A stretch of DNA of 47,453 bases, from the NCBI GenBank assembly GCA_944326725.1, contig CALVFA010000057.1, forward strand, positions 1-47,453. The letters are read 5' to 3'. Both the position numbers and the translations under genes were made by a program. Below, piece after piece: positions 5,962 to 28,215 of this stretch. The stretch comes from an uncultured Elusimicrobiales bacterium. GTDB lineage: Bacteria > Elusimicrobiota > Elusimicrobia > Elusimicrobiales > Elusimicrobiaceae. The notes beneath the pieces are model-generated. The model made no database searches. It saw nothing but the letters and a program-made list of their open reading frames with translations, and was not told the DNA's origin. Position 1 is the stretch's first letter, and every line of letters begins with the position of its first letter.

Positions 5962-7086
5962 ATGAAAAAACTGGCAATAGTATTTTTAACTGTAATGATG
6001 GCGTGGCCTGTGGCCGCTCAAACGCCGGTAAACTTTACGGTTTCTGAAGACATCAGCTACGATGACAACATCTATCTGACCAAAGATGATACGGAAGGCT
6101 CCATGATTAGCACCACCCGCGTAGGTGCTGATTATGCTTCCAATATTCCGGGCAGCGGTTTGGAACTGTCTGCCAAAGGTTTAGTGGGCTACAACGCCTA
6201 TACCAAAGACAGCTCTACCAATAACTATTGGGACGCTTTGGGTGCCGTGCAGCTCAAAAACGATTGGATGACCATTGGTGATCGCTTCGTCTACACCTCC
6301 GATCCGGCCAATAGCTCTTTGACTGAACGTGTGGAACGTATCCAGAACGTAGGTTATGCCTCTTTTAAAACCTCTTCTGAAAAGATGTTCGGTTTGGGTT
6401 TAAGCGTAGATGATATTTTTGACCGCTACATGAAAGCGGATTATGATTATCTGAACCGCAACCGCGTCAACTTGGGTGCGCAGGTTTACTATAACCTCTC
6501 TCCCAAAACGAACTTCTTCTTGGAATATGTCTATTCTGACATTGACTATCAGGAAGATAATATCAGCGATTCTACCGGTAGCAGCGTAGGTTTGGGTGTG
6601 AACGGACAGATTGCTTCTAAAGTAACCGGTACGGCCAAAATTACCTGGGATATGCGCGATTATGACCACAGCGTTGACGGTGCCCATAACTACAACGATC
6701 TGTTGGGTTATTATGTTGCCTTGGAATGGCAGCCTACCACACAGAACACCATTCGCCTCTCTGGTGAACGCAGAATGGAAGAAACCTTGTACGACGTCAA
6801 CCGCTATTTTGAGGATACCATTGTATCTCTGTATGGCTCTCAGAAAATCTATGACAAATGGACCGCTTCTTTGACCTTGTCTTGGGAAAATATGGCCTAT
6901 CCGTATAGCTCTGATGGCGATAAGAGAGATGACGACCTCTATAGCATTCGCCCGGCGGTGGACTACCAGTTCAAAGAATGGCTGTCTGCCGGAGTGTGGT
7001 ATCAGTGGCGCAACCGCAATTCCAACAAAGGGCTGTTTGATTACGACCGCAATCAGTTTGGCGTATATGCCAAAGCGATGTTCTAA
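5962..7086 (+). CDS. Outer-membrane beta-barrel protein
   Basis: 374 aa with a signal peptide ending ..WPVAAQ (about residue 20). Nearly the whole mature protein alternates aromatic and polar residues in 9-12-residue strands (for example YNLSPKTNFFLEYVYSDIDY, SAGVWYQWRNRN), and it ends in phenylalanine, the usual BAM recognition residue. The visible strands would support a barrel of about 16-18 strands. It resembles the EpsL/BBP2 type of exopolysaccharide-associated barrels, but I cannot name a family with certainty. It is co-transcribed with the preceding secreted protein and followed by a strong terminator. The neighbouring capsule locus has a Wza homologue too short to span the outer membrane, so this barrel is a candidate partner (see findings). 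Confidence 0.85.
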   Translation: MKKLAIVFLTVMMAWPVAAQTPVNFTVSEDISYDDNIYLTKDDTEGSMISTTRVGADYASNIPGSGLELSAKGLVGYNAYTKDSSTNNYWDALGAVQLKNDWMTIGDRFVYTSDPANSSLTERVERIQNVGYASFKTSSEKMFGLGLSVDDIFDRYMKADYDYLNRNRVNLGAQVYYNLSPKTNFFLEYVYSDIDYQEDNISDSTGSSVGLGVNGQIASKVTGTAKITWDMRDYDHSVDGAHNYNDLLGYYVALEWQPTTQNTIRLSGERRMEETLYDVNRYFEDTIVSLYGSQKIYDKWTASLTLSWENMAYPYSSDGDKRDDDLYSIRPAVDYQFKEWLSAGVWYQWRNRNSNKGLFDYDRNQFGVYAKAMF

Positions 7087-7108
7087 TTGTGGTTAAAGCG
7101 AACTTTAA

Positions 7109-7132
7109 CCCCGCCTTCGGGCGGGGTTTTTT
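7109..7132 (+). terminator. Intrinsic terminator after the barrel gene
   Basis: Stem CCCCGCC (7109-7115), UUCG tetraloop, GGCGGGG (7120-7126), then six T. It sits 22 nt after the barrel stop codon. Confidence 0.93.
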
Positions 7133-7433
7133 ATGCTCTTTTTAAAGACTGAAAGTAGAATTCCTCCATTGCTTTAATAGGGCTAGCTTTTTTGGAAGGA
7201 GAGCGTTTAACTAAATATCGCAAACGCACTATCTATGTACAGGTGTTATACCAAGATTTATTACAGAGAAAGCACCGCGTGTGCAGGGTGTATTGCTGGC
7301 CTTGACAGCAGGAAAGAGGAAAGGGTACGGGGCGGGAGACTCCGGCCCACGCTGCAGATAAAGGGGCACAAAAGCTATATTGTGTGGTAGGTGTTTCTGT
7401 ATTAAATAGCCATTGCGGGGCTGGGAGCCGGAG
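7133..7433. other. 301-bp gap downstream of two convergent units; possible decayed coding sequence
   Basis: No intact gene. On the minus strand, in the same frame as the 7434 gene, reading past its TAG gives 66 open codons, a second TAG at 7233-7235, 33 more codons (with an MEEFYFQSLKRA-like end) and TAA at 7131. The region also has an 8-bp inverted repeat TAAATAGC/GCTATTTA (7403-7410, 7433-7440) spanning the gene end, but no U-tract. It may be a pseudogene tail, a dispersed intergenic element or chance. Confidence 0.35.
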
Positions 7434-8456
7434 CTATTTACTGCGCAAAATCAATACTTGATAAGGGGCAAGCTGTGCCGTTTTCTGGCGCCCAAACAAG
7501 GATTTATATTTTTTTTGTAGAAATTGCGGCGGCAGCGGCTGCGACTGGTCGGAAGCATTGAGTAAAACCGTATATTTTTTGTTTTTGTACTGCCAAGTTC
7601 TAGCTAATAAAGGCAAAGAAACCTCAACTGGGTTTTTGGCGGGGGTACCTTTTTCCAACACAGGGAGGAATTTGGATAATTCTTTGCTAACAGAGCTGAG
7701 TCGTTGCCACCACTCTGGCTGAGCCTGGGGCAAGGGTTTCCCTTCCGTAGTGAAGATAAAATAGAATAAACCACTGACTCCGTTCACAATGCCATGATAA
7801 GACATGAAGCGGATTTCTTGTTCTGTAGGGAAACGCCCAATTCGGTCATCATCAGCCCGATATTGTTTGTATTCTTTCCAGTTAAAAGCTTGCACTACGC
7901 CCCAAAGAGGGGTTTCTGCAGTGCCGGATTCTAACAACCCCTGCCGGGCCAATAACAGTTGATCCCCAAAAGAGACCAGCGGCAAATGCGGCACAGGATA
8001 CCAATCCATCATTAAAATATCCGGCAAATCATAAAAAGGCGTAGCTGTTTTTCCCTGCCCGATAACCAAAGCCGTCTGATGTTGCGGAAAAGCGGTTTTG
8101 GCAGTGTTATACGCCTGCAATACGCGCTGGCGGGGCCAACGTACTACATCGGGTTCATCTACCAAATACCAGGCCAGCATGGGCCAGCTGTGGGCTTCTT
8201 TTTCATAGGGAGAGCCTATGACTTCGTTGGGATAGAAAACAACCTGCATATGCTGCTTTTGGGCTTCTTGGGCCAATTGGGAAAGCAAGGCGGGGTCTTT
8301 TCTGTACGTTTGTATGCAATTAAAACCGGCTTTTTTAACGGTTTTAATGTCAGAGGGAGTGTTCACCCCATACATACACAATGCAAAGGGAGAAGCCCCA
8401 AGAGAAGAGGCCAAGCCCGCTGTGCAGGCCGCCGCGAGAATATTACGAAGCCACAT
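7434..8456 (-). CDS. Secreted TIM-barrel glycoside-hydrolase-like protein
   Basis: 340 aa with a signal peptide (hydrophobic residues 5-20, cleavage likely after SLGA), so periplasmic or exported. The body looks like a (beta/alpha)8 hydrolase: GVNTPSDIKTVKKAGFNCIQTY near the start, AWYLVDEPDV around residue 105 (Asp-Glu-Pro as in GH42/GH5-like and DUF4434-like proteins), DILMMDWYPVP, PLWGVVQAFNW, and SYHGIVNGVSGLFYF. A small C-terminal beta domain (YTVLLNAS..) follows. I cannot assign a CAZy family. Its ATG at 8456 lies inside the end of the priming transferase gene (14-nt overlap) with AGGA five bases upstream, so it belongs to the exopolysaccharide operon. A plausible role is trimming, length control or release of the polymer. 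Confidence 0.75.
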   Translation of the reverse strand: MWLRNILAAACTAGLASSLGASPFALCMYGVNTPSDIKTVKKAGFNCIQTYRKDPALLSQLAQEAQKQHMQVVFYPNEVIGSPYEKEAHSWPMLAWYLVDEPDVVRWPRQRVLQAYNTAKTAFPQHQTALVIGQGKTATPFYDLPDILMMDWYPVPHLPLVSFGDQLLLARQGLLESGTAETPLWGVVQAFNWKEYKQYRADDDRIGRFPTEQEIRFMSYHGIVNGVSGLFYFIFTTEGKPLPQAQPEWWQRLSSVSKELSKFLPVLEKGTPAKNPVEVSLPLLARTWQYKNKKYTVLLNASDQSQPLPPQFLQKKYKSLFGRQKTAQLAPYQVLILRSK

Positions 8457-9780
8457 GGGAATCCTTTATAAACATACGCAGGCCGGTTTTGACCATAATT
8501 TCCAAATCCAGCCAAATGGAGCGGTTTTTTATATACCATACATCATAAGAAAACCGGGTAAAGGCGCTTTCAAAAGGTCTGTTTTGGGACCGGCCGGCTT
8601 TTTCAGAAGAGATTTTATAATTAGGAGGCGCTTTGAAATTAAGCTGCGCCCAGCCGGTAATGCCCGGTTTTACAATAGTGCGTATGGTGTGGTTAGGGAC
8701 TTGTTCGTTTAAGATATTCCATTCACCCACCCATAAGGGCCTGGGGCCAACTAAAGATAAGTCCCCTTTGAGCACATTGATAATTTGCGGAATCTCGTCT
8801 AATCTAAAGCGCCGCAACCAAGCCCCGGTGCGGGTGATTTCTTCTTTGTCAGATTCCTGGTTTTGTTGTTTGATGGTGCGGAATTTGTAAATAGTAATGA
8901 TTTTCCCCATATACCCCACGCGTTTTTGGGTGAAAATGGGTTTCTCTTGGTCCAAACATTTAATTGCCAGCCAAATGACTGCCCCTATAGGCACCAAGAA
9001 AGGAAGCATAATAACAGTCAAAGCCAAATCTAAAAAGCGTTTGAGCATATTGTAGGTGGTGCTTTCGCGGCGGTTGCCAATGCCGCGCAGCAGCCACATG
9101 CCGTCATTAATGCTTTCGCGGGAAACGCGGCGGAAAATTTGCTCAAAAATGTTAAAATCCGTATCTACGCAGGCCCCTTTGGAAATAAATTTCTCGGAAA
9201 TGATATTCCAGGCCTCCGGTTTGTCGGAGAATAATTTGCTTCCTACTACCACAAAATCCAAGTTGCGCAGAGAATAGTTTTTATCGGCTGAAGGCTCCTG
9301 TTCTTTGGCGCGGATAGAAAAGCCTTTGGAAGAGGCTGCTTCTGCCGCAATATCGTCCAATGTCTGACTTTGTCCAAACAGCAACAGATTGACTTTGGAA
9401 AAGTCCATTTGGAAATAGGTCTTGCGCACCCAATAGATATATATGAAGTACATCAATAGTACTGCCATCAGAATAGCTTTGGGTGTAAGCAGCGGTAAGC
9501 GGCCGGAAAGGAAATAAAAAAAACAGACGGAGAGAAATGTAGAGAGCAAAAAAGCCAATATCAGCGATTTATAGCTGAGAAATTGTTTGCGCAGCGCTTT
9601 GAAGTCGTAAAAAGAAAACAGCCACAAAGCAAATGTACAAAAGGCAAACACAAAGACAAAAACTTTGCAGTTGTTAATATAAGTAATCCAGTCAATATGA
9701 AGCTTGCGTATAGCAATAGCTATAAACAGAATGGTAAAAAATGCCAAAAAATCCAATAGAAGGAAAAACCGGCGTTTCAT
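8443..9780 (-). CDS. Polyprenyl glycosylphosphotransferase (priming sugar transferase, WbaP/WcaJ type)
   Basis: Starts repeat-unit synthesis by moving a sugar-1-phosphate from a UDP-sugar to undecaprenyl phosphate at the inner membrane. 445 aa: four N-terminal transmembrane helices (roughly residues 5-115), a soluble CoA-binding-like middle domain (FGQSQTLDDI..VVVGSKLF), another membrane segment near residue 240 (LALTVIMLPFLVPIGAVIW), and the PF02397 catalytic domain with KFRTI, RRFRLDEIPQIINVLKGDLSLVGPRP and KPGITGWAQ. The start chosen is the ATG at 9780, which overlaps the epimerase stop as ATGA; an ATG 21 nt upstream is also open. The sugar, hexose or N-acetylhexosamine, cannot be told from sequence. 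Confidence 0.92.
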   Translation of the reverse strand: MKRRFFLLLDFLAFFTILFIAIAIRKLHIDWITYINNCKVFVFVFAFCTFALWLFSFYDFKALRKQFLSYKSLILAFLLSTFLSVCFFYFLSGRLPLLTPKAILMAVLLMYFIYIYWVRKTYFQMDFSKVNLLLFGQSQTLDDIAAEAASSKGFSIRAKEQEPSADKNYSLRNLDFVVVGSKLFSDKPEAWNIISEKFISKGACVDTDFNIFEQIFRRVSRESINDGMWLLRGIGNRRESTTYNMLKRFLDLALTVIMLPFLVPIGAVIWLAIKCLDQEKPIFTQKRVGYMGKIITIYKFRTIKQQNQESDKEEITRTGAWLRRFRLDEIPQIINVLKGDLSLVGPRPLWVGEWNILNEQVPNHTIRTIVKPGITGWAQLNFKAPPNYKISSEKAGRSQNRPFESAFTRFSYDVWYIKNRSIWLDLEIMVKTGLRMFIKDSHVAS

Positions 9781-10706
9781 TGTTTTTCTTGGTGCTCCCA
9801 CATTTGTTTTAACCCCACTTCCAAAGAGACGGCCGGGGTATACCCTTGGCTGGCTAATTTGGAAATATCGGCTGATGAGAGTTTGACATCGCCGGCCCGT
9901 TTAGGGCGAAACACCCGCTCCAACGGCCGGCCGGCTATTTTTTCTATCGTATCAGCTAATTGCAAGAGGGAATATGTTTTGCCGCTGGCTACATTGTAAA
10001 TTTCCCCCGGCTGGGCTTTAAGCGCCGCTATCAGGTTGGCTTGCACCACATCGCTGACATGTACAAAATCGCGGCTTTGTTGTCCGTCCCAATCTATGCC
10101 TAAAGGGGCCCCTTGGCGGGCCAGCTGCATAAATTTAGCAATGACTGCCGCATAGGCGGAGTTGGGGTTCTGCCCGTCGCCAAACACATTAAAGTAGCGC
10201 AGCGCCACCGTTTCCAATCCATATAAACGGAAATACATTTGGCAGAGTTCTGCTCCCATTTGTTTAGACAAAGCGTAAGGGGATTGGCAGTCTACGGGGC
10301 TGGTTTCCCTATAGGGCAAATCTTCCCCATTGCCATATACCGCACTGGAAGAGGCAAAAACCACCCGTTTCACCCCTGCCCGGCGCGATTCTTCTAGAAT
10401 TAGAGCCGTCCCTTGCACATTAATTTGCATTGTTTCCAGGGGTTTTTCCATAGATTCTGCTACGGATACCAAAGCGGCGTGGTGCAATACATAGTCTGCG
10501 CCGATTATAGCTTGGCGTACGGCGGCCGTATCCTGGATATCTCCGGTGATGAGTTGAATCTGCTCTTCTACCCCGGCCAAGTTTTCCCGGCGTCCAGATG
10601 AGAAATTATCTAAAACGCGCACCCGCTGCCCTAGGCGGAGCAGTTCTTTGACCAAATGGGAACCGATAAAGCCGGCTCCTCCCGTGATAAGCCATGTTTG
10701 TGGCAT
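9777..10706 (-). CDS. NAD-dependent UDP-sugar epimerase (WbpP/GalE-like SDR)
   Basis: Extended short-chain dehydrogenase of 309 aa. It has the Rossmann motif TGGAGFIGSH near the N-terminus, the SSSAVYG catalytic Ser/Thr segment, and YALSK (YxxxK). The segment YFNVFGDGQNPNSAYAAVIAKFM resembles WbpP-type UDP-GlcNAc C4-epimerases, and RDFVHVSDVV is the usual nucleotide-sugar binding block. It most likely makes UDP-galactose or UDP-GalNAc. Galactose would also feed the UDP-galactopyranose mutase encoded at 21.5 kb. The ATG at 10706 (MPQTWLITGG) is preferred over the ATG at 10730 because AGGGA lies ten bases before it and the Rossmann fold starts directly after it. First gene of the minus-strand priming operon. 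Confidence 0.88.
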   Translation of the reverse strand: MPQTWLITGGAGFIGSHLVKELLRLGQRVRVLDNFSSGRRENLAGVEEQIQLITGDIQDTAAVRQAIIGADYVLHHAALVSVAESMEKPLETMQINVQGTALILEESRRAGVKRVVFASSSAVYGNGEDLPYRETSPVDCQSPYALSKQMGAELCQMYFRLYGLETVALRYFNVFGDGQNPNSAYAAVIAKFMQLARQGAPLGIDWDGQQSRDFVHVSDVVQANLIAALKAQPGEIYNVASGKTYSLLQLADTIEKIAGRPLERVFRPKRAGDVKLSSADISKLASQGYTPAVSLEVGLKQMWEHQEKQ

Positions 10707-10738
10707 AGAAAAGATTTCCCTTGTCATCATATAAACTA

Positions 10739-10819
10739 ATTATACTAAATACAGTAGACCACTGGGGCAAAAAGCAGAGCAGTATAAGTCTATTTCATAG
10801 TGGCCTAAAATGGTATAAT
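10739..10819. promoter_or_regulatory. Divergent promoter region of the polysaccharide locus
   Basis: Minus strand: TATAAT at 10744-10739, 32 nt before the epimerase ATG. Plus strand: TATAAT at 10814-10819, 18 nt before the ATG at 10838 of the 11.7-kb glycosyltransferase operon. Neither has a convincing -35 box; activator dependence is possible. The two boxes are about 70 bp apart, so both arms could be controlled together. Confidence 0.5.
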
Positions 10820-10837
10820 TTAAACTGGTTACTTATT

Positions 10838-11665
10838 ATGAATACGGTATACCCTTCTTTTTCTGTGTTGATGTCCGTATACGCCAAAGACAATCCGGAT
10901 TGGGTAGCTCAGGCTTTGGAAAGCGTGCTGAGCAATACGGTCTGCCCTGCGGAAGTAGTGGTAGTGCAGGACGGCCCTGTGCCGCAAACAATCAGCCGGG
11001 TGTTGGCAGAGTATATGGGGAAATACCCCCAGATTAAACGGGTGCCGCTGCCGCAAAATATGGGGCTGGGTATGGCACTGCAGAAAGGGCTGGAGGCGTG
11101 TTCCTGTGAGTGGGTGGCCCGTATGGACTCCGACGATATTTCTTTGCCGGACCGTTTTGAAAAACAATTGGCGCGCTTGGCCCAAGAGCCGGAACTGGCC
11201 GTTTTAGGCGGGGCGATAGAGGAAGTAGACGCAGAGAGCTTGCAGCCGGTGGCGCTTCGGCGGGTGCCTTGCGGGGACGCGGAATGTAAAAAGTTTTTAA
11301 AAACCCGCAGCCCCTTTAATCATGTAACAGTCATGTTTAAGAAAAGCGCAGTATGGCAGGCCGGCGGTTATCAGCCTTTTCACTTGATGGAAGACTATTA
11401 TTTGTGGGCCCGTTGTGCCGCGCAAGGGCTTGTTTTTGGGAATTTGGCGGATATTTTGGTTAGAGTGCGGGTCAATCCGTCCATGTACGGCCGGCGCGGC
11501 GGGTGGCAGTATTTTAAGAGCAATAAAGCCTTGTCTGCCCAATTGCGGCGGCTGGGTTTGATTGGCTGGGGAACCTATCTTTTTAACTTGAGCGTGCGCT
11601 TTTGCGTACAGGTGCTAATGCCGAATCAGCTGCGTAAAATTTTTTATAAAAAAGCCTTAAGATGA
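10838..11665 (+). CDS. Family 2 glycosyltransferase
   Basis: 275-aa GT-A fold transferase without membrane anchors. N-terminal FSVLMSVYAKDNPDWVAQALESVL and VVVVQDGPVP bind the nucleotide sugar. The metal-binding DxD is in ARMDSDDISLPDRFEKQ, and MEDYYLWARCAAQG supplies the acceptor-side acidic residues, as in WaaE/LgtA-like enzymes. The upstream in-frame ATG at 10721 would extend across the promoter and adds no conserved sequence, so the start is placed at 10838. First gene of the long plus-strand assembly operon; its stop overlaps the next start (ATGA). Confidence 0.9.
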   Translation: MNTVYPSFSVLMSVYAKDNPDWVAQALESVLSNTVCPAEVVVVQDGPVPQTISRVLAEYMGKYPQIKRVPLPQNMGLGMALQKGLEACSCEWVARMDSDDISLPDRFEKQLARLAQEPELAVLGGAIEEVDAESLQPVALRRVPCGDAECKKFLKTRSPFNHVTVMFKKSAVWQAGGYQPFHLMEDYYLWARCAAQGLVFGNLADILVRVRVNPSMYGRRGGWQYFKSNKALSAQLRRLGLIGWGTYLFNLSVRFCVQVLMPNQLRKIFYKKALR

Positions 11666-12753
11666 CTAAAAAAAACATTGGGATATTAACCCATTACCAA
11701 GTACACAATCATGGCGCGGTGCTGCAGCTCTATGGGCTGTACCATACGCTGCAAAACCTGGGCCTAGCCCCTTGTGTGCTGACATATCAGAAAAATTTTG
11801 ATTTTATAGACCCCGCCTTAAAAAATAAATATACCTTTTCTTTAAAATCGGTCCCGTTTTATGTGCGGTATTTGTTTCAGCAGGGGCTGGCTAAAACTTG
11901 GTTTAATTTCTACAAAAACCGCCGGCTGGGGCAGTTTAAGAAACGGCACTTTTTATTTACCGCATGGCAGACGCCGCTGGACTGCGCGGTGGTGGGAAGT
12001 GATGAAGTTTTTTCCCTGGAAGCAGGCATCAACCGTATGATGTATGGCTATGGCGTGCAGAGCGGGCGGATTTTCTCTTATGCGGCCAGCTTTGGGCAGA
12101 CGGGTATTAGAGACATAGAACAGAAAGGCTGCCGGGATATCCTGGCAGCCGGGCTGAAAAAATTTAGCCATATTTGCGTGCGGGATCAGGCTTCTGCTGA
12201 AACGGTTGAAAATTTAATCGGGCAAAAACCCGTCATTCATTTTGATCCGGTTTTGCTGTACGGATTTGAAAAGGAACTTGCAAACAGTTCTTTTTGCCCG
12301 CCCCGAGCGCCGTATTTGGTGGTGTACGCTTATGACAACCATCTAAATACGCCGCAAGAAGTGGCGGCGGTGCGCAGCTATGCCCGCGCGCATCATTTGA
12401 AAATAATTTCTCCCGGATTTTATCACGCTTGGGCGGACCGTAACTTAAATGTGGACCCCTTGGAGTTGTTGCAAGTATTTAAGCACGCGGCCTGTGTGGT
12501 GACGGATACCTTCCATGGCAGCGTATTGTCTATTTTAACCAATCGGCCTTTTGCCGCTTGTGTGCGGGAAATGAACCAAAACAAATTAGGCTTTTTGTTG
12601 GACTCTTTAGGGGTGGGGCAAGCCCGCATGAGCTCATGGGAGGCCGTGCCGGAGATTTTATCCCGGCAGTGGGACTGGCGCACTGTGAATGAAAATATAC
12701 AGCGCGAGCGGGCCGGGGCGCTTTCGTACGTAAAAGAGGCTTTGTATGACTAA
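11662..12753 (+). CDS. Polysaccharide pyruvyl transferase family protein (PF04230)
   Basis: 363 aa. N-terminal NIGILTHYQVHNHGAVLQLYGLYHTL is the family's typical start; VVGSDEVF and FSYAASFG follow near residues 110-140. The C-terminal half contains VVTDTFHGSVLSILTNRPF, the conserved DxFHG motif. Characterised members (CsaB, WcaK, ExoV) put a pyruvate ketal on a sugar; many EPS-locus relatives are untested. In many gut bacteria this gene sits directly before an F420-dehydrogenase-beta-like gene, exactly as here (8-nt overlap). Substrate unknown. Confidence 0.88.
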   Translation: MTKKNIGILTHYQVHNHGAVLQLYGLYHTLQNLGLAPCVLTYQKNFDFIDPALKNKYTFSLKSVPFYVRYLFQQGLAKTWFNFYKNRRLGQFKKRHFLFTAWQTPLDCAVVGSDEVFSLEAGINRMMYGYGVQSGRIFSYAASFGQTGIRDIEQKGCRDILAAGLKKFSHICVRDQASAETVENLIGQKPVIHFDPVLLYGFEKELANSSFCPPRAPYLVVYAYDNHLNTPQEVAAVRSYARAHHLKIISPGFYHAWADRNLNVDPLELLQVFKHAACVVTDTFHGSVLSILTNRPFAACVREMNQNKLGFLLDSLGVGQARMSSWEAVPEILSRQWDWRTVNENIQRERAGALSYVKEALYD

Positions 12754-13918
12754 CTGTGTGGAATATCCAGCCCCATGCACAGGTTGCGGCGTATGCCGGG
12801 CCGTTTGCCCGGCGGAGGCCATTAGTTTAAAGGTAGATGCAGAAGGTTTTTGGACGGCGGTGTTAAATAAAGCCCAATGTATTGGCTGCCGCAAGTGCCT
12901 TTGCGTATGTCCTAAAATTGAGCAAAACTTCCCCGCTTCTGCCTCGTTTGACAGTTTGCCTCTCTATGCTCTGCATAGCCAGGACCCGGCGGAGCAGGCC
13001 AGTTCTTCCAGCGGGGCAATCGCAGCTGAAATTACAAAATGGGCTTTTGCAAACGGTTATAAAGCGGCCGGAGTCATTTATAATTATCAACGGCAATGCG
13101 CCGAAACGGTAATAGCGGAAACCCCGGCAGAAGCGGTGGCTTTTAAAGGTTCTAAGTATTTACAAAGCGACAGTGCCGCCGCTTTTGAACAAATTTTAAA
13201 ACGGAAAGACAAACTGGTGGTTTTTGGTACCCCTTGCCAAATAGCGGCACTGCATTTGGCGGCGCAGGCTGCCGGGCGGCGCAACGAATTGGTATTGGTG
13301 GATTTTTTCTGTCATGGGGTGCCGTCATATGGGTTATGGAAGGCTTTTTTGGAGCAACAGCCCGCGCCGGTTAAACAGATACATTTTCGGAGCAAGCGGC
13401 GCGGCTGGCATAGTTATACTATGGAAATTAACGGGCAAACAATACCCCAAGCCCAAAATCCGTTTTATGCTTTGTTTTTTAGTGACTTGCTGTTAGGGCG
13501 TGCATGCTATGCGTGTGCCAGCAGGAAGAGCTTCGCTTTTGCCGATATCCGCTTGGGGGATTTTTGGGGCAGTCCGTTTGACTTGCGCGAGGACGGCATC
13601 AGCGCCGTATGCGCCATAAGCGCCAAGGGGCGGGAAATTATTTCTGCTTTAATGGCTCAAAAACAACTGGTGGCTTTGCCGGCCAATCATACCGTCTGTC
13701 AACGGGCGCAAGCGGCTTTTAGAGATACCCCGCTGCGCAGCGACAGAAGAGATTTTTATTTACGGCGTCTAGCTCAAAAGACGCCGCTGACGCAGCTGTG
13801 GGCCCAATACCAGCGGGGCGGTGGTTTCTTTAAGAAATATGCCAAACGCTTTTTATTTTCGTGCCCGCGTATAGCCGGCTTGGTCAGGTATTTTTTTCAC
13901 AGGAGTCAAGGATATTAA
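12746..13918 (+). CDS. F420 hydrogenase/dehydrogenase beta-subunit-like Fe-S protein of the polysaccharide locus
   Basis: 390 aa. The N-terminus holds a 2[4Fe-4S] ferredoxin: CxxCxxCxxxCP at C11/C14/C17/C21 and again at C45/C48/C51/C55. The rest matches the FrhB/FdhB N and C domains: SSSSGAIAAEITKWA, FKGSKYLQSD, VVFGTPCQIAAL, FFCHGVPSYGLWKAFL, and RLGDFWG. It is a flavin/Fe-S redox protein. Homologues paired with pyruvyl-transferase-like genes recur in exopolysaccharide loci of anaerobes, where the reaction is not established; use of true F420 is not implied. Overlap with the preceding gene suggests the two products work on the same sugar. Confidence 0.88.
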   Translation: MTNCVEYPAPCTGCGVCRAVCPAEAISLKVDAEGFWTAVLNKAQCIGCRKCLCVCPKIEQNFPASASFDSLPLYALHSQDPAEQASSSSGAIAAEITKWAFANGYKAAGVIYNYQRQCAETVIAETPAEAVAFKGSKYLQSDSAAAFEQILKRKDKLVVFGTPCQIAALHLAAQAAGRRNELVLVDFFCHGVPSYGLWKAFLEQQPAPVKQIHFRSKRRGWHSYTMEINGQTIPQAQNPFYALFFSDLLLGRACYACASRKSFAFADIRLGDFWGSPFDLREDGISAVCAISAKGREIISALMAQKQLVALPANHTVCQRAQAAFRDTPLRSDRRDFYLRRLAQKTPLTQLWAQYQRGGGFFKKYAKRFLFSCPRIAGLVRYFFHRSQGY

Positions 13919-13919
13919 G

Positions 13920-16104: not shown

Positions 16105-16107
16105 TTT

Positions 16108-17223: not shown

Positions 17224-17225
17224 AT

Positions 17226-17906: not shown

Positions 17907-18874
17907 CCCAACCGCTTTTATCTGTGGTGGTGGCAGTCTATAATACATCGGATTATTTGGACCGGTGCGTGCAGAGTCTGTTGGCTCAAACATATAAAAA
18001 TTTGGAAATCATTTTGGTAGATGACGGCTCCACCGACCAAAGCCCCGCGATATGCGACCGTTATGCCAGCCAATACAGCCACATACACGTTATTCATCAG
18101 CAGAACCTTGGGCCGTCTGCGGCACGCAACCGGGGCATACAAAAAGCCCAGGGGGAATTTGTCGGATTTGTAGACAGCGATGACTATTGCGCCCCGCAGA
18201 TGTATGAAACATTATATGGCTTAATTGAACGCTATGGCACCCAAGTTGCGGCGGCGAACTATTATGTAGAAACAAATGCCGGCTGTCAGTTTTCGTCATT
18301 GGGTTTTCAGCAACGGGTTCTAAGCGGGGAGGCGGCTATCATTTCCTGTGTGCAAAAGCTGGCTTCTTTGGCTTGGAATAAACTTTTTGCACGTTCTCTA
18401 TTTGATGATATACAATTTCCGTCTGGCAAAGTGTTTGAAGACTTGTTTATTTGTTACCGTTTATATGACAAAGCCGGCGGCGTAGCCGCCACCGATACGC
18501 CCGTTTATTATTATAACCGGCGCAACCTTTCCAGTATTACACAGAAGAAGTTTTCGGTTACAAAACTAGATTATTTGCAGGCGTCATCGGAACTGCTGGC
18601 ATTTTGCCGGAGCAAGAAATACTATCGCGCTGAAAAAATAGTCTTGCAAAAGCGTATCTGGCATATAACTGGTTTCTTGCGCCAAATAGCCGCGTGCGGT
18701 TTTAATGACAGGGAGGTTATTCGGCCGCTGCTGGAAGAGCTGAAAAAATACCTGGGACTTTACTTGACCAGTTCCCATAAGCTTACCAGCAAGGCGTTCG
18801 CGGTGGCTTGTTGCATAAATTTTAACTGGACGGCCAGGTTGTATCGGTTGCTGTTTCAAAGAGGGAAAAAATGA
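17903..18874 (+). CDS. Family 2 glycosyltransferase
   Basis: 323-aa GT-A transferase with the textbook N-terminus LSVVVAVYNTSDYLDRCVQSLLAQTY, ILVDDGSTD, GPSAARNRGI and GFVDSDD (DxD metal site). It is similar in sequence and length to the next gene; the two share the VDDGS..D..ICxxYA and GFVDSDD blocks almost unchanged, suggesting tandem duplication. The start at 17903 overlaps the DUF1919 stop (ATGA). The body after residue 120 lacks membrane helices. Confidence 0.9.
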   Translation: MTQPLLSVVVAVYNTSDYLDRCVQSLLAQTYKNLEIILVDDGSTDQSPAICDRYASQYSHIHVIHQQNLGPSAARNRGIQKAQGEFVGFVDSDDYCAPQMYETLYGLIERYGTQVAAANYYVETNAGCQFSSLGFQQRVLSGEAAIISCVQKLASLAWNKLFARSLFDDIQFPSGKVFEDLFICYRLYDKAGGVAATDTPVYYYNRRNLSSITQKKFSVTKLDYLQASSELLAFCRSKKYYRAEKIVLQKRIWHITGFLRQIAACGFNDREVIRPLLEELKKYLGLYLTSSHKLTSKAFAVACCINFNWTARLYRLLFQRGKK

Positions 18875-19914
18875 ATACTATGCCTTTAATATCCGTTGTG
18901 GTACCTGTGTTTAAAGCGGAAAAGTATCTGCCGGCTTGTATTGAGAGCTTGCTGGCGCAGACCTATCCCAATATGGAATTTATTTTGGTAGATGACGGTT
19001 CGCCGGACAGTTCATTAAAAATTTGCCAAGAATACGCAGCTAAAGACAGCCGCATACGGGTTATCCACCAGGAAAATGCCGGCTGTGCTACGGCCCGCAA
19101 TACGGGGCTGGCGGCCGCCCAAGGGGAATATATCGGTTTTGTAGACAGCGATGACACTATTAAACCGCAAACCTACCAAACGGCTTGGCAGACGCTGACC
19201 CAATACCAGGCTGACTGGGTCATGTGGAATAATCTGACCCCGGTTGCTCATTTGCCTAATGGATTGATACAAGGGGAAACATACTACCAGATGTTAGGGG
19301 AGAGTATCTTGACCCGCGGGTACGGCCCGTCCGTTTGTTTAGAACTGTTTAAAGCAGATATTATCCGCGCACATCGTATTGCTTTTCGGCCGGAGATTAA
19401 ACGGGGAGATGACCTGTTTTTTGTGTTACATTATGGGCGTTATGCCACTAACATTTATTATTTAAAAGATAAATTTTTTTACAATTATCTCTATAATCCT
19501 GTTTCCCTTTCGCACTCGTTCCATTCGGACGCTTTTGATTATCCAGTAAAATACTATCAAGCGCTGAAAGATATTTTTGCTCCGTTGGAAAATTCCCCTT
19601 ATTTGCCTTATGTGCAGGCGCGTTTTGCGCGGGATATTTGCGATGCGTTTATGGTATTTATGCGCCCGGCCAATCCGCTTCCTCTGCGCAAAAGATTGCA
19701 AAAAGTGCGTGCTTTTATGGAGCAGGAGAGCACACAAAAATTTTTGCAGACAAACTATAGCCGCTATTTGCGCAAGCAGCAAGCTTTGCTGGTGTGGCTG
19801 CTGAGCAAGAAGTGCTATTGGACTGCCTGGCTGGTTTCGCGCCTAGTGATTGGTATGATGCGTCTTAAAAATTTAACCAAAGAGAAGTGGCTGACAGCCA
19901 AACATTATAAATAG
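18871..19914 (+). CDS. Family 2 glycosyltransferase
   Basis: 347-aa GT-A enzyme: ISVVVPVFKAEKYLPACIESLLAQTY, ILVDDGSPD, CATARNTGLAAAQGEYIGFVDSDD, and a later RGDDLFFVLHYGRY acidic segment likely to contain the catalytic base. The C-terminal 60 residues are basic and amphipathic, which may help peripheral membrane binding. ATGA overlap with the preceding GT2. The flippase gene follows after 1 nt. Confidence 0.9.
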   Translation: MNTMPLISVVVPVFKAEKYLPACIESLLAQTYPNMEFILVDDGSPDSSLKICQEYAAKDSRIRVIHQENAGCATARNTGLAAAQGEYIGFVDSDDTIKPQTYQTAWQTLTQYQADWVMWNNLTPVAHLPNGLIQGETYYQMLGESILTRGYGPSVCLELFKADIIRAHRIAFRPEIKRGDDLFFVLHYGRYATNIYYLKDKFFYNYLYNPVSLSHSFHSDAFDYPVKYYQALKDIFAPLENSPYLPYVQARFARDICDAFMVFMRPANPLPLRKRLQKVRAFMEQESTQKFLQTNYSRYLRKQQALLVWLLSKKCYWTAWLVSRLVIGMMRLKNLTKEKWLTAKHYK

Positions 19915-19915
19915 T

Positions 19916-21454
19916 ATGAATCAACGCAAGGCAGGGGTTATTCTCTCTTACATCAAAATGTTTTTAAGCGGGGCCGTTAATTTAATATACGTGCCGCTGC
20001 TATTGTTTTTTTTGACAAAAGAGGAATATGGTCTTTATCAGTTGGTGGGCTCTGTAATAGCGTATTTGACATTGATGGATTTCGGCTTAGCCGATACGGT
20101 CACCCGTTATTACGCTAATTACATGGCACGCAACGACTCCGATGGCCTGCGCCGCCTGCTTTCCACCGTTTCGGCGGTATATGGGTTTATAGCGGCGATG
20201 GTTATTCTTGTGGGAATTGTCTTGCTTCAGTTATGCTTACCCTTGTACACCCATACTCTTTCTGCGCAGGAATTGCATACAGCACAGTTGGTTTATTGGA
20301 TTTTGCTGATTAATGTGGCCCTGGCCATCCCGTCCAACATTTTCAAAGCGGTTATCAATGCGCACCAGCGTTTTGTCTTTGCGCAATTATTGATTATTAT
20401 CAATACTGTTTTGCAGCCGGTTTTAGTCTGTGCGGTATTAATGGCGCATCCTTCGGTAGTGGCGCTGGCAATTGTGCAAACGGTGTGCAATATAGCTATG
20501 ATTGCCTGTAACGTTTATTATTGCCGGCGGCATTTACAGGTATCTTTGCAGTGGTGCGGAGCGGACCGGAAAATTTTAAAAGAAACACTGTTGTTTTCTA
20601 CTTTGTGGTTTACGGTAGCCCTGGTCGATCAAATTTTTTGGCGTTCCGGACAGTTGGTGCTGGGGGCTGTGGTGGGCACCGCAGCAGTGGCGGTTTACTC
20701 TGTGACCATACAGCTGCAGGTGCTTTATGGTTGGTTTTCGGTTATTATCAGCAAAGTGTTTTTGCCTCGTCTGTCTGCCATAGCTGCCACCGGAGAACAG
20801 GAAGAAGAAATGAATGCCATCTTCTTAAAGACATCCCGTTTGCAAACGCTTATTTCCGCTTTGTTGGTTTCTGGATTTATTATGGTAGGCAAAGAATTTA
20901 TTTTTCTATGGTTGGGGGATGGTTTTTCCCAAGCGTATATTTACGGGGTGGTTCTGATGGTATGCTTTTTTATTCCTTCGGTGCAAAATACGGGTCTTGT
21001 TATTTTACAGGCCAGAAATAAGCTGGGGTTTTATGCGGGATTTTATGTAGTTTTGGCATTTGTAAGTCTGTTGGTTTCCATTGGCCTGGCCAAACAATAT
21101 GGCGGGCTCGGCTGCGCGTGGGGGACAGGCGGCGCTCTTTTTGTAGGCGGATTGGTGATGAACCGGTATTATGCTAATATGGGGTTAAGTATGCGGGTGT
21201 TTTGGAAAGACATAGCCCAGGTGCTTGTGGTGACCCTGCTGGCGATGGCTATATTTTATATGATAAAAAAGCTGTGGCCGCTGGCCGGCGGCTGGATGAG
21301 TTTTATAGGCCAAGGCGGTCTTTACTCCGTTTTGTGGGGAGGGCTGATGTGGGGTATAGTCTTAAACAAATATGAAAAAAATCTGGCCCTAGAAATGGGT
21401 GGACAGCTATTACGTTTCGCAAGATTACGCAAAAGGGAGCATCCTTCAATATGA
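19916..21454 (+). CDS. Oligosaccharide flippase Wzx (MOP superfamily)
   Basis: 512 aa, about 14 membrane helices arranged as two halves: AGVILSYIKMFLSGAVNLIYVPLLLFFLTKEEYGLYQLVGSVIAYL, then FGLADTVTRYYANYMARND, the typical Wzx/RfbX opening. It carries lipid-linked repeat units across the inner membrane. It is placed directly after the last glycosyltransferase and before glf (ATGA overlap), so the order follows the pathway. It retains the positively charged residues inside helices (for example the WRSGQLVLG segment) expected for an anionic lipid-phosphate cargo. Confidence 0.92.
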   Translation: MNQRKAGVILSYIKMFLSGAVNLIYVPLLLFFLTKEEYGLYQLVGSVIAYLTLMDFGLADTVTRYYANYMARNDSDGLRRLLSTVSAVYGFIAAMVILVGIVLLQLCLPLYTHTLSAQELHTAQLVYWILLINVALAIPSNIFKAVINAHQRFVFAQLLIIINTVLQPVLVCAVLMAHPSVVALAIVQTVCNIAMIACNVYYCRRHLQVSLQWCGADRKILKETLLFSTLWFTVALVDQIFWRSGQLVLGAVVGTAAVAVYSVTIQLQVLYGWFSVIISKVFLPRLSAIAATGEQEEEMNAIFLKTSRLQTLISALLVSGFIMVGKEFIFLWLGDGFSQAYIYGVVLMVCFFIPSVQNTGLVILQARNKLGFYAGFYVVLAFVSLLVSIGLAKQYGGLGCAWGTGGALFVGGLVMNRYYANMGLSMRVFWKDIAQVLVVTLLAMAIFYMIKKLWPLAGGWMSFIGQGGLYSVLWGGLMWGIVLNKYEKNLALEMGGQLLRFARLRKREHPSI

Positions 21455-22566
21455 TAGAAAAAGTGCAGAATTTAATTGTAGGGGCCGGTATTTCCGGCGC
21501 GGTATTGGCGCGTTTGTTGGCGGAGGCCGGGCAGAGCTGTGTGGTATTAGACCGCAGGGCCTATGTGGGGGGCAACTGCTATGATTACAAAGACCCATGC
21601 GGGGTCATTGTGCATAAATACGGGCCGCATATTTTCCGCACAGATAACAAAGAAATTTGGGATTTTTTGAGCCGTTTTACGCTGTGGCACCCTTATATGC
21701 ATAAGGTAAAAGGATATGTGGACGGACAGGAAGTTCCTATTCCGTTTAATCTCAATTCTTTGTATCAGCTTTTCCCGCAACAATATGCCGCCAGATTGGA
21801 AAATAAATTGGTGGAAAATTTCGGATTTAACAAAAAAGTTCCCATTTTAACCCTGCGCAAGACGCAAGATAAGGACCTTTCTTTCCTAGCGGAATATATT
21901 TACGAAAAAGTATTTTTCCATTATACGCTCAAACAATGGGGGCTTAAACCGCAGGAACTGGATCCCTCCGTTATGGAACGGGTGCCGGTATTTATCAGCC
22001 GCGATGACCGGTATTTTCAGGAAAAATACCAAGCCATCGCCGCAAACGGATATACGGCGCTGTTTGAAAACATGCTGAATCACCCGAACATCAAGGTGCG
22101 TTTGAATGCGGAATTTTCGGCTGTCAGCAAAGAGTATGAATATGAACGCCTTTTCTACAGCGGGCCGATTGACGAGTATTTTGATTATTCTTTTGGGGCT
22201 TTGCCCTATCGCAGTTTGCGTTTTGATTTGCGTAAAATGGATTTGACGCAGTATCAAAGCGCCGCTGTTATTAATTATCCCAATAACTATGATTATACCC
22301 GGGTAACAGAATATAAACACTTTTTGCCGCTTAGCAGCAATAAAACCGTGGTGGCTTTTGAGTATCCCTCTGATTTTAAGCTGGGAGAAAACGAGCGCTA
22401 TTATCCCGTCCCGGGGGAGAAAAGCGCCGCGCTGTATAAACAATATCTGGAGGCCGCCCGGAAGGAAAAAAATGTTTTTTTCTTTGGAAGGTTAGGCGGA
22501 TATAAGTATTACGATATGCAAACGGCAGTAAAGGACGCATTTGCTTTGGCCCTCCGTATGCTTTAG
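21451..22566 (+). CDS. glf: UDP-galactopyranose mutase
   Basis: Flavoenzyme that converts UDP-galactopyranose to UDP-galactofuranose; cytoplasmic. 371 aa. FAD-binding NLIVGAGISGAVLARLLAEAG is at the N-terminus, VGGNCYDYKDPCGVIVHKYGPHIFRT follows (the His-Gly-His region of Glf), and conserved aromatic/Arg substrate-site blocks appear as PFNLNSL, YSGPIDEYFDY and VTEYKHFLP. It shows that the polymer contains Galf, and implies that one of the glycosyltransferases here uses UDP-Galf. UDP-Galp could come from the epimerase at 9.8-10.7 kb. Last gene of the plus-strand operon; it ends 6 nt from the convergent acyltransferase. Confidence 0.96.
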   Translation: MIEKVQNLIVGAGISGAVLARLLAEAGQSCVVLDRRAYVGGNCYDYKDPCGVIVHKYGPHIFRTDNKEIWDFLSRFTLWHPYMHKVKGYVDGQEVPIPFNLNSLYQLFPQQYAARLENKLVENFGFNKKVPILTLRKTQDKDLSFLAEYIYEKVFFHYTLKQWGLKPQELDPSVMERVPVFISRDDRYFQEKYQAIAANGYTALFENMLNHPNIKVRLNAEFSAVSKEYEYERLFYSGPIDEYFDYSFGALPYRSLRFDLRKMDLTQYQSAAVINYPNNYDYTRVTEYKHFLPLSSNKTVVAFEYPSDFKLGENERYYPVPGEKSAALYKQYLEAARKEKNVFFFGRLGGYKYYDMQTAVKDAFALALRML

Positions 22567-22572
22567 AACCTT

Positions 22573-23610: not shown

Positions 23611-23620
23611 TGTATTAAAT

Positions 23621-23653: not shown

Positions 23654-23669
23654 TTGAAAGGCAAAATGC

Positions 23670-25385
23670 TTATTTTTTATCTTCGCTGTAATAGCTGTAG
23701 CTTTTGTAATAGCCGTATTTGCCGTAAGAAAGCCCTTCCGGCTTGTAATGGCCAATTACTGCGCCTAGTATTTTGATCCCGGCCTTTTGCAGTTTATCCA
23801 GCGCTACTTGGGCCAGTTTGGCGTTGGTCTGTCCGTATTTAATTACGAATACTGCGCGCGGTATGTATTTACCCCAAAGCAGCGTATCGGATACGGGCAA
23901 AATAGCCGGGCAGTCAATGACTACTTGGTCATAATTTTTCTTGGCCCATTCAATAAAGTCTGCCAGTTTGGGCGTATTTAAAAGCTCTGCCGGGTTGGGC
24001 GGGCGCTGACCGGACGTCATCACATACAAATTCGGTACGTCTTTTACGGCCTGAACGTTATAGGCGTAATCTGCTTTTTTGGGGTCGGCGTCCCAAATAT
24101 TGCTCAGGCCCTTTTCGGTAGAGAGTTTAAATACGCGGTGCACGCGGGAGCGGCGCAAATCCCCGTCTACCAAGAGCACTTTCTTTCCGGCTTGCGCCAT
24201 AGCGACCAGCAAGTTGGAAGAGAGATGGCTTTTGCCTTCCCCCTGCAAAGAGCTGGAAATCAAAATAGGAGCGTTGTGGTCGTCTGCCAAAGCAAAATCC
24301 AACATGGTGCGTACATTGCGCACGTTTTCCGCCAGCAGGAAGTTGCCTTCTTTGAGCATCGTGGCATATTCGCTTTCTTTCTTCTTGCTTTTTTCATACG
24401 GCACAAAACCTAAGAAAGGCAGTTTTAATTTCTCTTCCAAATCTTCGGAAGATTTGACACTTTGATCCAAAAATTCCAGCACAAATATCAACAACAGCCC
24501 TAGTAACCCGCCGGCCAGCAGGCCAACCGCCAAATTAAGCATTTTGCGCGGGCGCACTGGTTTTTCCGGGGTAACGGCCGGGTCAATAATGCGGATATTA
24601 TTGCCAGAGAACTGACCGGAAAGCTCTATTTTAATACTTTGCACCAGGCGGCGCGTTTCCGTATTAATTTGCTTATTGATGGCGTTTAATTGGTTTTGTA
24701 CCGATTGTAAATCAGGGTGTTGTTCGGTATATTTTGCCGCCAGTTTGGCCCGTTCAGCGGAGAGTTGGGCGGCCTGCTGTTTGAGGGTTTTGATAAAATC
24801 GCTGTTGACCACTTGCGGCATAGAATTAAGCAGCTCTTGCTCTTCCGGGCTGCGTTCGGTGTTTTCCAAGGCGGCGATGACGTCCTGCCCCATAAAAATA
24901 CGGTTGCTTACGTTGTCTGCCACAAAGGTTTTGGCCAGCGTGTTGGCAATTTCAGCCGAAAGCTTAGGGTCATATGTCGTGACAGATACATTGACCAAAC
25001 GACTGCGGGTAATGGGGGCTATATCTATGGCTCTTTTAAATTTATTGATTCCCCCGGGATTGGCGAATTGTTCATAACGTCCCAAATCCATTTCCCGGTA
25101 TACTTTTTCCAGCAGGGAGCGGCTTTCTAAGAGCTGGTACTGGGTGCGGTAATAATCTTCCTCGCTGGTAAAAGAGCCATACGGTGTGGCATCAATTTTG
25201 CCGGCGTCTTCTTGGTTAATCATCATCAGCACTGTAGCTTTGTAAGCCGGACGCATAAAAATGTTGACTAGCACTGCAGCAATTAGACCCAAAGCGGCAA
25301 TGCCCACCATTAGCCAAAAGCGCTTAAAAATGATGTTGATATAATAACTGAAATCTATTTCTTCATTATTTTTTACGTTATCCAT
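23670..25385 (-). CDS. Wzc-type chain-length determinant / bacterial tyrosine kinase
   Basis: 571 aa. Wzz domain first: YYINIIFKRFWLMVGIAALGLIAAVLV (TM1, about residues 14-42), a periplasmic segment with coiled-coil potential (residues 195-260) and TM2 near 285-305 after the PEKPVRPRK proline motif. Then a BY-kinase domain: Walker A in SSSLQGEGKSHLSSNL (about 377-392), Walker A' in VLLVDGDLRR (about 403-412), and Walker B in QVVIDCPAILPVSD, where Cys replaces the usual Thr of IDTPP. The C-terminus carries a tyrosine cluster (YGKYGYYKSYSYYSED) for autophosphorylation. It controls polymer length and couples to the Wza exporter; the divergent low-molecular-weight phosphatase at 27.7 kb would reverse the phosphorylation. 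Confidence 0.93.
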   Translation of the reverse strand: MDNVKNNEEIDFSYYINIIFKRFWLMVGIAALGLIAAVLVNIFMRPAYKATVLMMINQEDAGKIDATPYGSFTSEEDYYRTQYQLLESRSLLEKVYREMDLGRYEQFANPGGINKFKRAIDIAPITRSRLVNVSVTTYDPKLSAEIANTLAKTFVADNVSNRIFMGQDVIAALENTERSPEEQELLNSMPQVVNSDFIKTLKQQAAQLSAERAKLAAKYTEQHPDLQSVQNQLNAINKQINTETRRLVQSIKIELSGQFSGNNIRIIDPAVTPEKPVRPRKMLNLAVGLLAGGLLGLLLIFVLEFLDQSVKSSEDLEEKLKLPFLGFVPYEKSKKKESEYATMLKEGNFLLAENVRNVRTMLDFALADDHNAPILISSSLQGEGKSHLSSNLLVAMAQAGKKVLLVDGDLRRSRVHRVFKLSTEKGLSNIWDADPKKADYAYNVQAVKDVPNLYVMTSGQRPPNPAELLNTPKLADFIEWAKKNYDQVVIDCPAILPVSDTLLWGKYIPRAVFVIKYGQTNAKLAQVALDKLQKAGIKILGAVIGHYKPEGLSYGKYGYYKSYSYYSEDKK

Positions 25386-25393
25386 AACACCCT

Positions 25394-26032
25394 CTAAAAC
25401 ATACTTTGCGGTACAAATACCACATCACCCGGCAGCAGAGGAATGTCCATCATTTTGTTGCCTTGTTTGGTGATTTGCGTAATATCTACGTCTATCGCTT
25501 TTTGACGACCGTTTTCCATGCGCAATACACGCACTTTGCCGGTGGCGGCAATGTCGGTAAAGCCGCCTACGGAGGTGATGGCCTCTAAGACGGTCAGCGG
25601 TTTCTCTGGCGGGATTTCAATGGCGGCTGGTTTTTGTACCTGGCCCAAAACATAAACCGTTTTGTTTCCGTATTCTTTAATGAGCATGGAAACTTGCGGA
25701 TTTTTTAAATAAGTTTTCAAAGCGTCGGAGAGGCGGGTTTCGGCTTCTGCTACCGTATAGCCGGAAATATGAATATGCCCTACCAGCGGAAAAGTAATGT
25801 TGCCGCTGCCGCTGATGCGCTGGGTGCGGTCCATTTCTTCTTCCATAAATACTTTGATTTCCAGCAAGTCGCCAGGTTGCAAAATATAGGCATTGGATTG
25901 GCGAATTTGCTCAATGCCCTGGGCAATTTCCTGGGGCACGTTGGTTTGTGGCGCCTCTACGTATACAGGCGCCTCAGCGCAAGCTGCCAGCAGACAGCAA
26001 ACGCTTAGAATAGATAAAGCGGTATTTTTCAT
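25394..26032 (-). CDS. Short Wza-type polysaccharide export lipoprotein (PES + SLBB)
   Basis: 212 aa. A lipoprotein signal peptide ends in the lipobox LAAC with C18 as the lipid-modified residue. A polysaccharide export (PES) domain follows (ILQPGDLLEIKVFMEEEMDRTQRISGSG...), then one SLBB domain (VYVLGQVQKPAAIEIP..LTVLEAITSVGGF). E. coli Wza (about 380 aa) has further SLBB-type domain D3 and a C-terminal helix that forms the outer-membrane pore; both are absent here, so another protein must span the membrane. It starts 8 nt upstream of wzc. It has no Shine-Dalgarno, but an extended -10 box lies 7 nt before the ATG (leaderless mRNA predicted). Confidence 0.92.
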   Translation of the reverse strand: MKNTALSILSVCCLLAACAEAPVYVEAPQTNVPQEIAQGIEQIRQSNAYILQPGDLLEIKVFMEEEMDRTQRISGSGNITFPLVGHIHISGYTVAEAETRLSDALKTYLKNPQVSMLIKEYGNKTVYVLGQVQKPAAIEIPPEKPLTVLEAITSVGGFTDIAATGKVRVLRMENGRQKAIDVDITQITKQGNKMMDIPLLPGDVVFVPQSMF

Positions 26033-28184: not shown

Positions 28185-28215
28185 ACATATTCTGTTTGCA
28201 CTTGCCGAGAATCCT

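Follow-up and report, generated by a model that had tools for sequence, protein, structure and literature searches.

How polymers of Wzx/Wzy-type pathways cross the outer membrane when their outer-membrane polysaccharide export (OPX) protein has no pore of its own found a convincing answer only in 2022, from experiments in few organisms. In that year, a composite translocon of an OPX protein and an integral beta-barrel was described for Myxococcus and, as VpsM/VpsN, for Vibrio (PMC9601211). For the pair EpsX/EpsY, pull-down contact and mutual stabilization were demonstrated (PMC9601211). As set out in the main text of that paper, the OPX proteins concerned measure at most 280 amino acids, consist only of domains D1 (PES) and D2 (SLBB) and lack a C-terminal helix, their barrels have 16–18 strands, and the accompanying genome screen called for a barrel encoded within five genes of the OPX protein. 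The same text describes, for other phyla, a dichotomy between OPX proteins with a helix and OPX proteins with a barrel; Elusimicrobia are absent from it. Here we consider a locus of an uncultured Elusimicrobiales bacterium, contained in 47,453 nucleotides (positions 1 to 47,453 of contig CALVFA010000057.1, assembly GCA_944326725.1) that we refer to as the window; the genome to which it belongs measures 1.44 Mb and is 85% complete. An earlier note on this DNA had proposed that a barrel (5962–7086), perhaps together with a FecR-like protein (5412–5945), supplies the missing outer-membrane channel for a short Wza-type protein (25394–26032), and all three open reading frames (ORFs) are present at these coordinates.

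The window combines an OPX protein of 212 amino acids, with PES, one SLBB domain and a helix-less end, and a barrel modeled with 18 strands, both within one polysaccharide cluster. We judge it probable (at roughly 0.85) that the locus encodes an exopolysaccharide or capsule pathway of the Wzx/Wzy type, with a composite outer-membrane gate formed by OPX and barrel, and the proposal of a two-part exporter is supported by co-occurrence, adjacency and the exchange of helix for barrel. The mechanism is already published for EpsX/EpsY and VpsM/VpsN, and the window presents it in a split arrangement. Our additions to it are the coupling of the two genes across the phylum, the exchange of helix and barrel within one order, the split of the pair around a sugar cassette, and a tail-bearing companion. 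In this respect the phylum amounts to a natural experiment, as a single order contains both helix-bearing OPX proteins without this barrel and truncated OPX proteins with it.

A short OPX protein and the exchange of helix for barrel

The OPX protein (25394–26032, minus strand) holds a PES and a single SLBB domain, just as the earlier note had read it: Poly_export (PF02563, 78.7 bits) occupies residues 45–116 and SLBB_2 residues 124–207, with five residues beyond. Its N-terminus, MKNTALSILSVCCLLAACAEAP, contains a lipobox-like LLAAC (read by eye), so that the protein is lipoprotein-like, and it represents the sole PF02563 match in the 85%-complete genome. The protein ends in VFVPQSMF without a C-terminal helix, and helix-type relatives with similar domains are, from their sequences, some 30 residues longer. 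No match to Wza_C was found and no sequence is left that could hold one, which places the protein outside class 1 OPX. Its best solved relative by sequence is 9n9a, a short export protein of 186 residues (E 9.4e-36), to the very end of which the alignment extends. Among NCBIfam models, TIGR03027 (121.8 bits), EpsE (TIGR03028; 102.3) and M. xanthus EpsY (79.6) score best, all under the models' cut-offs. The short-ended OPX proteins that were read (window; L030–L041, L167–L186) close with [IV]P[QE]xxF or a near variant with a terminal phenylalanine, possibly a docking end for the barrel.

Reading the C-termini of 29 OPX proteins (loci L030–L058, from 46 matches listed outside the window) divides them in two. 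Eighteen end at ...VPQSxF, and all 18 come from barrel genomes; the other 11 continue for about 30 residues into a hydrophobic segment. Nine of these 11 come from barrel-less genomes, where no other type was seen (9/9), and the remaining two (G044, G054) are second OPX proteins of barrel genomes. Twenty more OPX proteins, one each from other OPX-only genomes, comprise 15 with the helix and five without, so that in total the helix is present in 24 of 29 OPX proteins of barrel-less genomes (29 of the 50 OPX-only genomes sampled, one protein each). This exchange strengthens the logic of a missing channel. The sister family also has a second kind of OPX locus (L111, L112, L115), in which a helix-type OPX protein stands beside a membrane protein of ~190 amino acids, a coiled coil of ~240 and a protein of 1600–1900. 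Scans of these neighbors (two of the large proteins, one each of the others) found no Pfam barrel family and no convincing Pfam domain.

The barrel and its coupling to OPX

The barrel (5962–7086, plus strand) matches BBP2_2 (PF10082) over residues 27–370 with 48.1 bits (cut-off 23.7), the only PF10082 match in the genome. Its AlphaFold model, of the protein alone and from a 39-sequence alignment, has 18 strands with a mean predicted local distance difference test (pLDDT) score of 91.4 and a predicted template modeling score of 0.82, and the fold and the N-terminus together suggest that the protein sits in the outer membrane, in agreement with the earlier reading. The best NCBIfam model is EpsL (TIGR03014), with 55.8 bits over the full length, and we describe the barrel as EpsL/VpsM-like; a profile search against the sequences of the PDB gave no match up to E 1. 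In structural comparisons (Foldseek, VIA-align), the top matches are AlgE (Z 20.2; 4.9 Å over 317 residues, 12% identity) and porins of the Occ/OprD group (OccK2, Z 19.6), with maltoporin at 18.8. Conservation is higher in loops 1 (residues 35–46; 0.56) and 3 (114–124; 0.64) than in the strands (0.46), and loops 4, 5, 6 and 9 are variable (0.24–0.29). Loops 1 and 3 would be extracellular if the N-terminus is periplasmic, and the conserved loops may line the pore.

Among 294 genomes drawn evenly from the phylum Elusimicrobia, 101 have both barrel and OPX, five the barrel only, 50 OPX only and 138 neither (Fisher p 1e-33, by a test that ignores relatedness). The barrel is therefore not widespread without export genes, given that 101 of 106 barrel genomes carry OPX, nor is a different barrel always found beside wza, for the sister lineages have the same barrel family next to or near it. 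In the window's genus, represented by 37 genomes, 18 have the barrel and 17 OPX, and each of the 17 OPX genomes has the barrel, the lone barrel-only genome (G013) having a barrel cut by a contig end; the sequence of the small protein 5412–5945 was found in 16 of the 37, all with the barrel. Fifty barrel loci lie in named genomes, of which one, a distant match, is from Verrucomicrobia, five are labeled only as “bacterium” and the remainder as Elusimicrobia, Elusimicrobiales, Elusimicrobiaceae or Elusimicrobium. Titles name the rumen or rectum in six cases and groundwater or a lake for some members of the sister family, and the gut relatives point to a gut origin for the window's bacterium as well. 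At E up to 0.01, a search of 72,556 plasmid records returned a single match, in Pseudoalteromonas sp. THAF3, whose barrel directly precedes a short OPX gene in a vps-like cluster.

The two genes are also close to each other in many genomes, by counts that are lower bounds, being taken among the matches listed for OPX. Barrel and OPX lie on one contig in at least 66 of the 106 barrel genomes, and among the 66 listed at least 16 pairs are at most 700 bp apart, at least 42 are within 5 kb and all are within 36 kb. The shortest spacing, of up to 700 bp, is found in at least 14 of the 22 barrel-bearing genomes from other families of the class and at least two of four other genomes of the phylum; among the matches listed it is found in none of the 31 barrel genomes of the genus, the 15 of the rest of the family, the 20 of the sister family or the 14 of a family that we number f15. 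The sister family has the genes 2–5 kb apart in at least 13 of 20, and at least 24 of the 31 genomes of the genus have both on one contig (at least 10 at 2–4 kb, at least 14 at 6–22 kb). In 13 outgroup loci, selected for the closeness of the two genes, OPX directly follows the barrel on the same strand in every case, and 12 loci have a polysaccharide co-polymerase (PCP) gene downstream. In nine of the 13, the ORF directly upstream of the barrel is a small protein with the conserved C-terminal tail described below or a variant of it. A Verrucomicrobia contig (L166) likewise has the order small protein, barrel, OPX, PCP; here ~1.1 kb separates the barrel from OPX. The order in the outgroups and in this contig suggests that the direct-neighbor order is probably ancestral and that the split arrangement of the window and f15 is derived. 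The family f15 (L179, L180, L182) lies outside the window's class; its barrels score against a profile led by the window's about as well as those of the sister family, and two of its loci (L179, L180) have the same split arrangement. Lateral transfer from one lineage to another is possible.

Several observations weigh against a composite gate. In the window, 16 genes lie between barrel and OPX, which puts the pair beyond the five-gene neighborhood of PMC9601211, within which pairs in relatives do fall; this neighborhood is a search rule of that paper and no part of the mechanism. The barrel occurs without OPX in five of the 294 genomes, of which G187 has a weak match (E 1e-4), and the least easily explained is G141 (92% complete), whose barrel lies within a contig of 163 kb that showed neither OPX nor PCP in the parts that were read. 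Nor do these five hold a good match to the Wzc/PCP of the window (G141 has a weak one, E 7.6e-6), so that they lack the entire export arm, be it in the assembly or in the genome itself. Short-ended OPX proteins occur in five genomes with no match to the barrel (G235, G224, G277, G289, G205); four of the five are on contigs ending where a barrel could be, and G277 has unrelated genes directly upstream of its OPX gene. Moreover, AlgE is tied within 1 Z with Occ-type uptake porins, so the fold alone is no proof of sugar export, and co-inheritance of one cluster could produce co-occurrence without any contact between the proteins.

The last of these points can be extended to the claim that co-occurrence reflects nothing beyond the inheritance of a polysaccharide cluster as a unit, so that all of its genes would show the same pattern. 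Wzc, Wzy_C, the phosphatase and the 340-residue protein of the locus do travel together as well, and Fisher's test takes no account of relatedness. Shared inheritance does not, however, predict a helix in the OPX proteins of most barrel-less genomes and an end at SLBB in barrel loci. Nor would it predict the case of G044 and G054: both carry the barrel together with two OPX genes, and the OPX protein that was read at a distance from the barrel has the helix. We regard this explanation as highly improbable. The likeness to porins, in turn, would suit a barrel that serves as a Wzi-like anchor or receptor for the finished polysaccharide, or as an uptake porin linked to the cluster, with OPX working through another pore. 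According to the main text of PMC9601211, Wzi is also an 18-stranded barrel, with an anchoring function. In addition, maltoporin and the Occ/OprD uptake porins come within about 2 Z of AlgE, and the window has its barrel gene far from wza. Adjacency of barrel and OPX in other families and exchange with the helix, however, are expected of a pore partner rather than of an anchor, and the genome has only the one PF10082 match, in a search there that covered PF10082 and no other barrel families; an anchor or uptake porin is thus unlikely.

In the composite gate that we favor, repeat units would be synthesized and polymerized by the cassette enzymes and Wzx/Wzy, and the Wzc-type co-polymerase would hand the chain on to short OPX lipoproteins, arranged as a ring and made up of the two periplasmic domains only. 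The chain would then leave through the 18-stranded barrel, docked on the OPX ring in the place taken by the C-terminal helix bundle in E. coli Wza. The computations show the domain content, the absence of a helix from the OPX protein, the 18-stranded model, the genomic coupling, the exchange of helix for barrel and the recurrence of the tail; the physical complex, the passage of sugar through the barrel and the role of the tail are what we infer. The small secreted protein probably belongs to the same machine, and its SPS-x-P tail, on a flexible linker, may dock on the barrel or the ring.

A secreted companion with a conserved tail

The small protein (5412–5945, plus strand) lies directly upstream of the barrel and has an N-terminal signal (by eye), a well-predicted beta domain (residues 21–134), and a disordered linker that leads to a conserved C-terminal tail, LSPSSPRN (residues 170–177; 5919–5942). 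Its association with the barrel, suspected in the earlier note, held, while the resemblance to FecR is not what recurs among relatives; the C-terminal tail is. No Pfam or NCBIfam family, FecR (PF04773) included, matched at E 0.1, a profile search of PDB sequences gave nothing convincing (best E 0.07), and Foldseek with the model found no match at E 0.001 or better. The best structural match of the beta domain is a weak one, PupR, a FecR-type regulator (Z 6.0; 3.6 Å over 90 residues), and LptA, with Z 5.9, is level with it. Two relatives at the same or a neighboring place were scanned, and one (L105 10973–11746) is a clear FecR match with 60.9 bits, the other (L104 6209–6895) reaching 17.8, under the cut-off of 24. 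The label “FecR-like” is thus the weakest part of the observation. A literature search found no account joining FecR with polysaccharide export, an outer-membrane beta-barrel and Wza, and the word is absent from the main text of PMC9601211 and PMC9603273.

The body of the protein diverges strongly: an alignment of 30 members has S171 as its one invariant residue, with M1, G113, S173 and P175 close to invariant. In the family the tail reads LSPS[AS]PR; other families have SPSTP, SPSSP, ISPSAP or VSGSNP, and the Verrucomicrobia contig has SSPSSP. Upstream ORFs are available for 71 of 78 distinct barrels, and 50 of the 71 carry the tail by a strict or a relaxed rule (39 by the strict one). Both regular expressions were composed after the first tails had been seen, and the ORFs against which they were counted come only from the fetched, mostly polysaccharide, loci, a narrow background. 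The strict form, SP[ST]xP within three residues of the end, occurs in 35 of 1355 distinct ORFs, 28 of which are directly upstream of a barrel by script, six more by listing, and one (L090) beside wzc; the relaxed form occurs in 45 of 1349, a count that includes an apparently spurious ORF (L172 11225). The 21 upstream ORFs without the tail are a mixed set. Two (L172, L173) have an SPSxP stretch some 15–25 residues before the end, 11 have altered tails (L096, L147, L148, L150, L156, L159, L165, L171, L174, L177, L178), four are another protein (L088, L129, L131, L152) and four are other or spurious ORFs (L089, L164, L169, L183). In L088, L129, L131 and L152 the protein preceding the barrel has ~190 amino acids and the motif ...NNTLGT..GY near its end; it may be VanZ-like.

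The tail persists where much else has changed. It is kept on bodies of low complexity (L094, L095) and on genes that have moved, to a place beside wzc (L090) or beside wza (L105 10973, the clear FecR domain protein, and L153 13445). A constraint from the ribosome-binding site of the barrel gene was considered as the cause of this conservation and rejected. The 14 loci inspected for it have their purine-rich site (GGGAG, Shine-Dalgarno-like, in the window) beyond the stop codon, and their tail codons vary synonymously; moreover, the tail is kept in the three relocated genes (L090, L105 10973, L153 13445), which do not precede the barrel. The beta domain, flexible linker and tail of the model would fit a tethered docking peptide, and the recurrence of the tail suggests that the small protein may be a third, tail-docking component of the exporter. 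Our more specific proposal is tentative, and holds that a secreted adaptor with a FecR/LptA-like or low-complexity body, present also in the one Verrucomicrobia contig, uses its SPS-x-P tail, its one recurring element, to plug into or clamp the barrel or the OPX ring and so makes polysaccharide release tail-gated or tail-assembled.

The odds are nearly even that the small protein instead acts in regulation, or in the envelope independently of the exporter, and that its tail is conserved for another reason such as sorting or processing; this would be compatible with a composite gate of OPX and barrel. FecR-family proteins are anti-sigma regulators, and PupR is, weakly and in a tie with LptA, the best structural match. 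The 21 of 71 upstream ORFs that lack the tail by rule (among them other or spurious ORFs and altered tails), the altered tails of one clade that retains the barrel (L147, L148, L150, L165) and a vps-like cluster in Pseudoalteromonas whose barrel is not directly preceded by a gene of this kind all agree with it. A signal-peptide-like start with no further membrane segment (by eye) speaks against this reading, as does a tail kept on low-complexity bodies and relocated genes. As a possible third component of the composite gate, the tail-bearing protein is a concrete candidate for one that has been overlooked.

Locus layout and likeness to known systems

Barrel and OPX occupy opposite ends of a block of ~18 kb. 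At the left end, the small protein and the barrel (plus strand) are followed on the minus strand by a 340-residue protein (7434–8456), a polyprenyl-phosphate sugar transferase that is the priming enzyme by its domain match (Bac_transf; 8443–9801), and an epimerase. A variable sugar cassette (10721–22566, plus strand) encodes glycosyltransferases, a pyruvyl transferase, FrhB-like and DUF1919 proteins, an EpsG-type Wzy, a Wzx flippase and Glf. The right end has, on the minus strand, an acyltransferase, a Wzc-type PCP with tyrosine kinase (Wzz, GNVR and AAA domain matches; 23670–25385), OPX, and a membrane protein like Wzy_C/O-antigen ligases (26070–27995), a conserved neighbor of wza whose true start is probably internal, as the ORF overlaps the gene that follows; this encodes, on the plus strand, a Wzb-type low-molecular-weight tyrosine phosphatase by domain match (27735–28184). 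Compared with the nearest relative (G015, of the same genus), identity is high for the small protein (90%), barrel (94%), Wzc (95%) and OPX (86%). Five cassette ORFs find best matches there of just 28–47%, others being conserved (Glf 93%, Wzx 74%, two glycosyltransferases 68%), and barrel and OPX thus flank a partly exchanged sugar block. One lineage has separated the pair around a swappable cassette, so that its gate must serve different polymers.

Two neighbors deserve separate mention. The 340-residue protein, secreted by its N-terminus and glycoside-hydrolase-like (both by eye only), is kept beside the barrel or the priming transferase in families f1, f2 and f15; it has no Pfam or NCBIfam match and none among PDB sequences up to E 10, and is possibly a periplasmic glycosidase of the pathway. 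Beyond the phosphatase, an EamA-type transporter (28141–29265, plus strand) has a long histidine-rich C-terminal tail with repeated HxH, which suggests metal binding.

The closest described counterparts are the M. xanthus pairs EpsY/EpsX, ExoA/ExoB and WzaB/WzpB, which, as presented in the main text of PMC9601211 and PMC9603273, share with the window a short, two-domain, helix-less OPX protein, an 18-stranded barrel with AlgE among the nearest structures, and a Wzx/Wzy pathway with a Wzc-type co-polymerase. The window differs from them in placing barrel and OPX at opposite ends of a block and in linking a tail-bearing secreted protein to the barrel. The vps-like cluster of Pseudoalteromonas sp. 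THAF3 has, directly after the barrel, a short OPX gene and a Wzc-type kinase; with 20.7% identity, its barrel can be aligned to 90% of the barrel of the window, and a priming transferase, rather than a FecR-like or tail-bearing gene, is directly upstream. EpsL and EpsE of XrtB/PEP-CTERM clusters are encoded in one cluster, and the two proteins of the window thus both bear a likeness to one known pair: the models of EpsL and EpsE are the best of NCBIfam for the window's barrel (TIGR03014) and the second best, after TIGR03027, for its OPX protein (TIGR03028), both window proteins scoring far under the equivalog cut-offs (55.8 vs. 275 and 102.3 vs. 262.65 bits). Wzi of E. coli and Klebsiella is the known 18-stranded barrel to which PMC9601211, in its main text, assigns anchoring. 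AlgE, the alginate exporter, agrees with the window's barrel in its 18 strands, in a tie with other 18-stranded porins, and belongs to a synthase-dependent pathway (PMC9601211), unlike that of the window. Finally, E. coli Wza (PDB 2J58) aligns with the window's OPX protein over the PES and SLBB regions, whereas its second SLBB domain and its C-terminal membrane helix have no counterpart in the window's protein.

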